Source: Gemmatimonadota bacterium
GTDB taxonomy: Bacteria > Gemmatimonadota > Gemmatimonadetes > Gemmatimonadales > GWC2-71-9
Direction of reading: 5' to 3'
Length of the DNA stretch: 64,000 nucleotides
Assembly: GCA_009692115.1 (NCBI GenBank)
Contig: SHZU01000003.1
Span: forward strand, 99,079-163,078
A program made the position numbers and the translations under genes. Within the stretch, counting starts at the first letter, position 1, and the number at the start of each line of letters is the position of its first letter. Of the stretch, positions 28,829 through 60,008 are shown piece by piece. Below the pieces are notes generated by a model. That model searched no databases. It was given only the letters and a program-made list of their open reading frames with translations, and was not told the origin of the DNA.

Positions 28829-29560
28829 ATGAACGTTACCTGCACCGCCTGCCAAACTGTTTTCCGAGTCGACCCGGCTAAAGTTCCCGCGGCCGGTGTC
28901 CGGGCCCGTTGCTCGGTCTGAAGCGGGGTATTCTGGGTCCGCCACCCGGTCGCCATCCCCATCAGCAGCGCGCCGCCGTTACCGGCCGATCCGGTACCAG
29001 TGGTGGCGACCGGATCCTCTCCGGCGTCGGCGCCGGTTGCCCCGGCCGTCGCACCGCCGGCCCGGGTCGAGGTCGCATCGTCGGTGCCGGCACCGCTGTT
29101 GGCGCCGCTCTCCCTGATCGCTCCGCGACCGGAGGGTCCTGCTGTGGCGCCTCCGGTGTGGCGGCCCGAGCCGACCGAACCGCTGCGATTGCCGCCGAAC
29201 CTCGTCCAACCGTCGGGCTGGCCGGCATTGCGTCCGACCTCGAATCCAAGCCCTCGTCCGGCCCCGCCGGCGGATCCCGGGGCCAAGAAGCCCCGGGGGA
29301 ATCCTTTCCTCAGCCAGGATCCGGCCGCCAAGGCCCGACGGCTGGCCCGGGCCCTGATCTCGGACATGGTTGTCTACCACCCCGCCAAGCGGCGCGAAGG
29401 CCTCCAAAACGCCTCGCTCAAGCGGCTCTTCGACGAAGAAATTCGGAAGAGTTGGGAAGAGTATGTCGACCAAGTGGGCAAGGACGTGGCCGAGTCGACC
29501 CCGTTTTTCCACGAAGCATTGAATGAGATCCTGGCCGGGGGCAGTCCGGTTTTCCCGTAG
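28829..29560 (+). pseudogene. Zinc-ribbon protein gene interrupted by in-frame TGA
   Basis: The ATG at 28829 opens an MJ0042-type zinc ribbon (MNVTCTACQTVFRVDPAKV, then VRARCSV), but codon 31, at the position of the fourth zinc cysteine, is TGA (28919-28921). The same frame continues open for more than 200 codons to TAG 29558-29560, through a Pro/Ala-rich linker and a conserved-looking C-terminal helical domain (AKARRLARALISDMVVYHP). One base change separates TGA from the TGC/TGT Cys codons. A point mutation, sequence error, readthrough or selenocysteine are possible; no convincing SECIS hairpin follows. Confidence 0.7.
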
Positions 29561-29656: not shown

Positions 29657-30761
29657 ATGGCCGATACTGCCGAGCGCTTGACGACGTTGGACCGGCGGAT
29701 GACCGAACTTCGAGACTTTCTTTGACTTGCCTGCCAAGACGGAGCGCCTCGCGGTTCTCGAGACCGACCAACTGATGCCCGGCTTTTGGGCCAACCAGGA
29801 GCGGGCTCGCGTGGTGGTGCAAGAGGTCAAGTCCCTGAAGGGATGGATCGGCCCGTCGGCCGATATCGCGCGCCGGCTCGCCGACGCTCGGGGTCTTGTT
29901 GAGTTGCTGGCGATCGAGCCGGACCCCGACCTGGCCGAGGACCTCGAGGGCGAGATCACGGCGCTGGAGCGGGCCACCGAGTCGTTCGAGCTCAAGTCGA
30001 TGCTCCAGGGCGCGGACGACCATCGGGACGCGCTGCTGACGGTCCATCCCGGGGCCGGGGGTACTGAGTCGCAAGACTGGGCTGAGATGCTGACGCGAAT
30101 GTACCGACGGTGGGCGGAACAGCACGGCTATCGGGTCAACGTGCTCGACATCGAACCGGGCGAAGAGGCCGGGATCAAGTCCGCGTCGCTCGAGATCATC
30201 GGTGAATATGCGTATGGGTTCTTGAAGGCGGAAAAAGGCGTCCACCGGCTGGTTCGGATTTCGCCGTTCGACTCCCAAGCCAGGCGGCACACCTCGTTCG
30301 CGTCGGTCTTCGTGTATCCGGAAATCGACGATACGATCGAAATTGACCTCCGGGACGAAGATATCAAGATGGATGTGTTCCGGGCCTCGGGGGCCGGCGG
30401 ACAGCACGTCAATAAGACGTCCTCCGCGGTGCGCCTGACCCACATGCCGACCAAGACGGTGGTGTCGTGCCAGCAGGAGCGGAGCCAGCACAAGAACAAA
30501 GAAACCGCGATGAAGATGCTCCGCTCGGCCCTCTACCAACTCAAGCTGGAGGAACAGGAGGCGGCCCGTGCCAAAGTGGAAGCGACCAAGACGGACAACT
30601 CATGGGGCAATCAGATCCGGTCGTACGTGTTCCAGCCGTACACTATGGTGAATGACCATCGGACCGAGCTCAAGATCTCCGACGTTCAGCGGGTCATGGA
30701 TGGCGATTTGGACGCCTTCATCCGGGCCTATCTCAAGCGGTTTGGAAGGTCGATCGGATGA
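29657..30761 (+). CDS. prfB: Peptide chain release factor 2 (programmed +1 frameshift)
   Basis: RF2 ends translation at UGA and UAA. The ATG at 29657 gives 22 codons ending CTT, then TGA (29723-29725) and C: the classic CTT-TGA-C slip site. Reading resumes in +1 at GAC 29724, giving a 367-aa protein. Downstream are the codon-recognition motif SPF (in ISPFDSQARRHTSF) and the catalytic GGQ (GAGGQHVNKTSSAVR). When RF2 is scarce the ribosome slips and makes more RF2. Its stop overlaps lysS (ATGA). The usual Shine-Dalgarno-like AGGGGG just before the slip site is not obvious. Confidence 0.96.
29720..29726 (+). promoter_or_regulatory. RF2 autoregulatory frameshift site
   Basis: CTT TGA C at codons 22-23 of prfB is the canonical slippery stop. 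Peptidyl-tRNA-Leu moves from CTT to TTT, and the 22-codon zero-frame leader joins the main frame that starts with GAC. Confidence 0.93.
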
Positions 30762-59925: not shown

Positions 59926-59998
<73 letters not shown>

Positions 59999-60008
59999 CT
60001 CAAGCGAA

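Follow-up and report, generated by a model that had tools for sequence, protein, structure and literature searches.

We analysed a 64,000-nt stretch of a Gemmatimonadota genome (the window), in which a gene at 28829-29560 on the plus strand is interrupted by a TGA codon. Translation gave a single frame of 243 codons, MNVTCTACQTVFRVDPAKVPAAGVRARCSV*SGVFWVR..., ending at TAG, with the TGA at codon 31 as its sole internal stop and no further stop in the 212 codons beyond it, linker included (Table 1). This confirmed the frame as it was described in an earlier note made from the sequence, which had considered a single-base change from Cys to stop, selenocysteine insertion and stop readthrough as explanations. 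Elsewhere in the window, prfB (RF2, recognised by a congener match, 29657-29726) carries a CTT TGA C frameshift site at 29720, in frame with ATG 29657, which we take to be the known frameshift signal, unrelated to selenocysteine. ARAGORN reported tRNA-Gly (ccc) at 59926-59999 as the sole tRNA gene of the window.

Table 1 Features of the interrupted frame (window coordinates)
Feature	Position	Strand	Basis
Predicted zinc ribbon, codons 1-30, ligand positions C5, C8 and C28	28829..28918	+	Translation; PF13717 and TIGR02098 matches; ZitP ligands (PMC5182065)
In-frame TGA (codon 31) where relatives have Cys, the fourth zinc ligand	28919..28921	+	Translation; codons of relatives
Remainder of ribbon (SGVFWVR), then a linker of low complexity rich in Pro/Ala; frame open	28922..29317	+	Translation; mean pLDDT 52-64 (blocks, residues 41-160)
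Hairpin CUGGGU-CCGCC-ACCCGG, unlike the selD/fdhA SECIS (no GGU loop)	28933..28949	+	Stem search and SECIS comparison
Predicted C-terminal RomX-like helical domain, residues 164-236	29318..29536	+	phmmer, profile and Foldseek against PDB 8zna
Normal end of frame, TAG	29558..29560	+	Translation

Judged by its sequence, the product begins with a zinc ribbon, followed by a Pro-rich linker and, at the C-terminus, a RomX-like domain. Scored with cysteine in place of the stop, the ribbon matched the MJ0042 domain (TIGR02098) at 36.2 bits against a cut-off of 20.9 and Pfam Zn_ribbon_4 (PF13717) at 48.2 bits against a cut-off of 30.3, and the fourth Cys of the MJ0042-type CxxC...CxxC pattern is itself the TGA in the candidate gene. 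The zinc ligands of Caulobacter ZitP are C5, C8, C28 and C31 (PMC5182065), and this numbering, together with the match of the predicted model to 2nb9, indicated that the stop sits on the fourth zinc ligand. In the structure prediction, folded with C substituted at residue 31, residues 1-40 had a mean pLDDT of 93-96 per block. The C-terminal domain matched no Pfam family at E up to 1, and was matched to Myxococcus RomX (PDB 8zna) by phmmer (4.9e-07) and by profile (1.3e-10). Foldseek also placed RomX at rank 1 (probability 1.00, 30% identity over 77 columns), so that sequence and fold both point to a RomX-like domain, although the Foldseek E was just 0.013 and nothing reached E 0.001 or better with the predicted model. 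Considering that RomX assists loading of the polarity GTPase MglA (PMC9481161), the candidate gene may, by analogy, be a polarity or motility regulator in these bacteria; one roadblock-domain (MglB-type) hit was found in the genome. Among the 288 genomes examined in the order, 247 had matches to the family of ribbon, Pro-rich linker and RomX-like domain, some of these matches covering one part only.

Gene content indicated that this genome decodes UGA as selenocysteine. The earlier note had advised looking for selA, selB, selC and selD, and all four turned out to be present, with SelA at 525.5 bits, SelB at 303.5 bits (above its cut-off), SelD at 379.2 bits and tRNA-Sec at 67.3 (above gathering; ARAGORN also calls SeC tca). 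SelD itself has one in-frame TGA (GAG*ASKL), as does a formate-dehydrogenase-like FdhA (CNRT*HAPS), whose match lies under the TIGR01553 curated cut-off. SelD scored above the cut-off in 204 of the 288 genomes of the order, with one TGA in many of the matches listed. The presence of this machinery removes one ground on which selenocysteine at codon 31 might have been dismissed.

The selD (L068, L100-L126) and fdhA (L062, L169-L198) loci share a hairpin with a GGU apical loop after the UGA, at two spacings, 32 nt in selD versus 18 nt in fdhA; the same loop is that of E. coli fdhF. Across 56 placed sites this GGU-capped hairpin paired 5-7 of 8 flanking positions. These sites comprised 26 from selD (25 of 26 TGA-bearing loci plus this genome's) and 30 from fdhA (29 of 30 loci plus its own), leaving out selD locus L113, with no motif placement, and fdhA locus L192, with no site. 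Pairs out of 8 were counted because the length of the unbroken stem can mislead, the real-looking fdhA site L198 pairing 7 of 8 with an unbroken stem of 2. As the selD SECIS, a hairpin nearer the TGA was set aside in favour of the GGU-capped one, which lies at spacing 32. The motif search yielded 32 distinct SECIS sites (16 selD, 16 fdhA), and 3 of 7 stem pairs were changed on both sides (15 sequences), mostly between the non-homologous selD and fdhA groups. In a covariance model that included both of this genome's sites, selD scored 26.8 and fdhA 23.6 bits, while a model built without them (R2) gave 23.1 and 15.6 bits, with other hits in those stretches at 15.6 and 19.7. The R2 score alone would not single out fdhA, 15.6 bits being the level of chance hits, and the SECIS argument therefore rests on the GGU loop, the fixed spacing and the 2.4 bits of the candidate described below. 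One further strong match to the SECIS model (L072:16962-16982, 23.6 bits, loop 16 nt past a TGA) lies in no recognisable gene and may reflect a terminator or chance.

No SECIS of the kind found in this genome's selD and fdhA follows the candidate TGA. Its two GGU places had 1 and 2 of 8 positions paired, its longest unbroken GGU-capped stem was 2 bp, and the covariance model gave 2.4 bits at best on the plus strand past the TGA. By chance, at least 5 of 8 positions were paired at 128 of 1572 window TGAs, indicating that absence of the signature is the ordinary state for a TGA. A GGUCU at 28914-28920, running from before the candidate TGA into it, scored 4.0 bits in the model, lies upstream and has no stem. 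The best uninterrupted stem with G followed by G or U at the head of its loop had 4 bp, a 9-nt loop and a spacing of 15, which is outside the 16-37 of the general model for bacterial SECIS elements (PMC13188914); this search discriminates little, as 776 of the 1572 window TGAs reach 4 bp. The statement in the earlier note that no clear bacterial SECIS is seen thus holds against the locally built signature. Its GGGT/ACCC stem at 28935-28947 is likewise present without a GU loop, but the stem extends to 6 bp rather than 4, with the loop CCGCC. In strength this hairpin did not exceed chance expectation (over four stretches, z was -0.33 to 1.38), and of 38 relatives whose codon is an ordinary Cys one, 12 have an equally strong hairpin in the same place. 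Hairpin strength alone was discarded as a SECIS test, the candidate's energy being reached by 36 of 400 sampled window TGAs and by 14 of 97 in-frame TGN codons; the count of positives from this comparison is left aside, as 2 of its 12 proved to be false motif matches.

We then turned to codon 31 in relatives. The family is present in 50 of 61 genomes (own included), and among 42 distinct sequences, with any residue permitted at codon 31 and fetched loci without the N-terminus left out, the codon was TGC in 34, TGT in 7 and TGA in 1, which is this genome. The comparison with close relatives that the earlier note had proposed thus returned ordinary Cys codons in 41 of 42 sequences and, with the profile matches and the ZitP numbering, bore out its placement of the TGA at the last zinc Cys. 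Four congeners of the same genus (G001, G002, G003 and G005) have Cys at this position; G003 and G005 carry a one-TGA SelD yet an ordinary Cys codon in the ribbon, and no match to the ribbon family was found in G004, another congener whose SelD has one TGA. A G005 hit with one TGA was rejected, since this stop lies in unrelated-looking sequence at a contig end and the G005 ribbon, on another contig, has Cys. A DNA pattern was used for the TGA form because the search that matched 247 of 288 genomes showed the best matches only. Applied to 288 genomes of the order, the pattern found this form once, and it did so once again among 395 genomes sampled from the phylum, in this genome on both occasions; the two sets overlap, and the pattern may have missed some carriers. 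The TGA is therefore aligned to a conserved Cys, and no second species keeping it was found by pattern in these overlapping sets.

The downstream part of the gene showed no sign of decay. Over 85 C-terminal codons, 1 residue was unique to this genome, compared with 0, 3, 0 and 3 in the four congeners, and dN to these congeners was 0.07-0.13 (dS 0.77-1.67), against 0.05-0.12 among the congeners themselves, indicating that the gene is no old pseudogene. Both flanks of the TGA are intact, in agreement with the earlier note. Together with the stop-free linker, the undecayed C-terminus indicated that the TGA arose recently, is an error or is decoded. Cys codons make up 16.3% of the codons that a single step separates from TGA in the 223 coding-like ORFs of this genome, so that a nonsense change to TGA would land on Cys about once in six if changes are equally likely, which makes the stop on a Cys a mild coincidence. 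Besides 28919, we judged no in-gene stop convincing in the ~204 kb covered by congeners, out of 391,879 bases, in a screen that was noisy enough for one filter version to drop 28919 itself. The other hits of the screen looked like shadow frames or upstream extensions, with cases such as L147:623 (TAG) judged by overall look.

These cumulative results suggested that the TGA at codon 31 is most probably a recent nonsense change or a consensus error. The fourth zinc-ligand codon, TGC or TGT in relatives, would have become TGA by a recent single-base change in this genome alone, either because the sampled population really carries a nonsense mutation or through an error of the consensus, two origins that the data cannot tell apart. 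Not being followed by a SECIS like those that the genome has in selD and fdhA, the UGA would then act as an ordinary stop; termination at this codon and the recency of the change are both inferred. It is the combination of no second TGA-bearing genome and no local SECIS signature that makes a young nonsense change or consensus error most likely. Several observations weigh against it: the genome decodes selenocysteine, so that UGA is not invariably a stop; the open frame over the 212 later codons would also fit a decoded UGA; C28-S-V-[TGA]31 would form a CXXU motif, which occurs in other selenoprotein families (PMC1088965); and the lack of another convincing in-gene stop in ~204 kb suggests that such changes are uncommon here. 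Of the three explanations considered earlier, the single-base change from Cys to stop, real or in error, is the best supported, whereas selenocysteine, possible given the machinery, is unlikely without the local SECIS signature.

Selenocysteine at codon 31 would give a ribbon whose zinc ligands are three Cys and one Sec, directed by a SECIS that differs from the selD and fdhA type. The machinery, the in-frame TGA found where expected in two genes, the position of the TGA precisely on a conserved Cys between intact flanks, the undecayed downstream sequence, the CXXU motif and the 6-bp hairpin with its loop at +21 to +25 are all consistent with this, and for some transporters and small proteins a role of Sec as metal ligand has been proposed (PMC13188914). 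The same source notes that the general bacterial SECIS model misses some elements, which makes a different SECIS type thinkable. Nevertheless, at most 2 of 8 pairs form around a GGU loop, the hairpin is no better than those of shuffled sequences or of the Cys-bearing relatives named above, and the TGA was seen in no second genome by pattern. A Sargasso Sea survey treated lone TGA sequences as mere candidates owing to sequencing errors (PMC1088965). We consequently regard selenocysteine here as improbable, and rate somewhat lower its fuller version, namely a polarity-type ribbon in which Sec replaces one structural zinc ligand under a SECIS lacking the GGU loop of the cell's other selenoprotein genes. 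Among the matches listed in a limited literature search, no paper on Sec in a zinc ribbon was found by title or abstract opening.

Two further readings leave selenocysteine aside. The gene may now be split: its first part would give a peptide of 30 residues, and an internal start, for example GTG 29000, which opens an ORF of 186 aa (29000-29560), would yield the RomX-like domain on its own. In Myxococcus, RomX is itself small and encoded separately (95-aa chain in PDB 8zna), but no clear ribosome-binding site was seen by eye ahead of 29000, and we consider this very unlikely. Least likely of all is that a near-cognate tRNA reads the UGA through at a low level to make some full-length protein with another residue at this position. 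The open downstream frame and the conserved RomX-like domain would fit such readthrough, but TGA is a working terminator in this genome, ending 127 of the 223 coding-like ORFs, and the ribbon of the product would be without its fourth ligand.

If true, Sec as a structural zinc ligand would imply a wider use of selenocysteine and an unusual SECIS. With a recent nonsense change or consensus error as the preferred reading, the case mainly shows that a locally built SECIS signature can sort a one-genome TGA from real selenoprotein sites in a Sec-decoding group. SelD and FdhA of this genome resemble the candidate in having a lone in-frame TGA within an otherwise open frame, but they differ in their GGU-capped SECIS and in a TGA that recurs in many relatives, neither of which the candidate has. 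The zinc ribbon of Myxococcus GltJ/AgmX (PDB 7zok) matched the candidate ribbon by profile (E 0.003), with weak matches in the single-sequence (E 0.23) and fold (E 3.2) comparisons. The zinc-finger domain of ZitP (PDB 2nb9) is a ribbon of the same ligand numbering (Foldseek rank 2, 32% identity, E 0.029); ZitP, however, keeps its four Cys and also has a membrane segment and DUF3426, where the candidate has TGA at 31 and a RomX-like C-terminus. RomX, a component of the Myxococcus polarity GEF (PDB 8zna), resembles the C-terminal 73 residues of the candidate by sequence and fold alone, and in the candidate this RomX-like domain is fused to a zinc ribbon.
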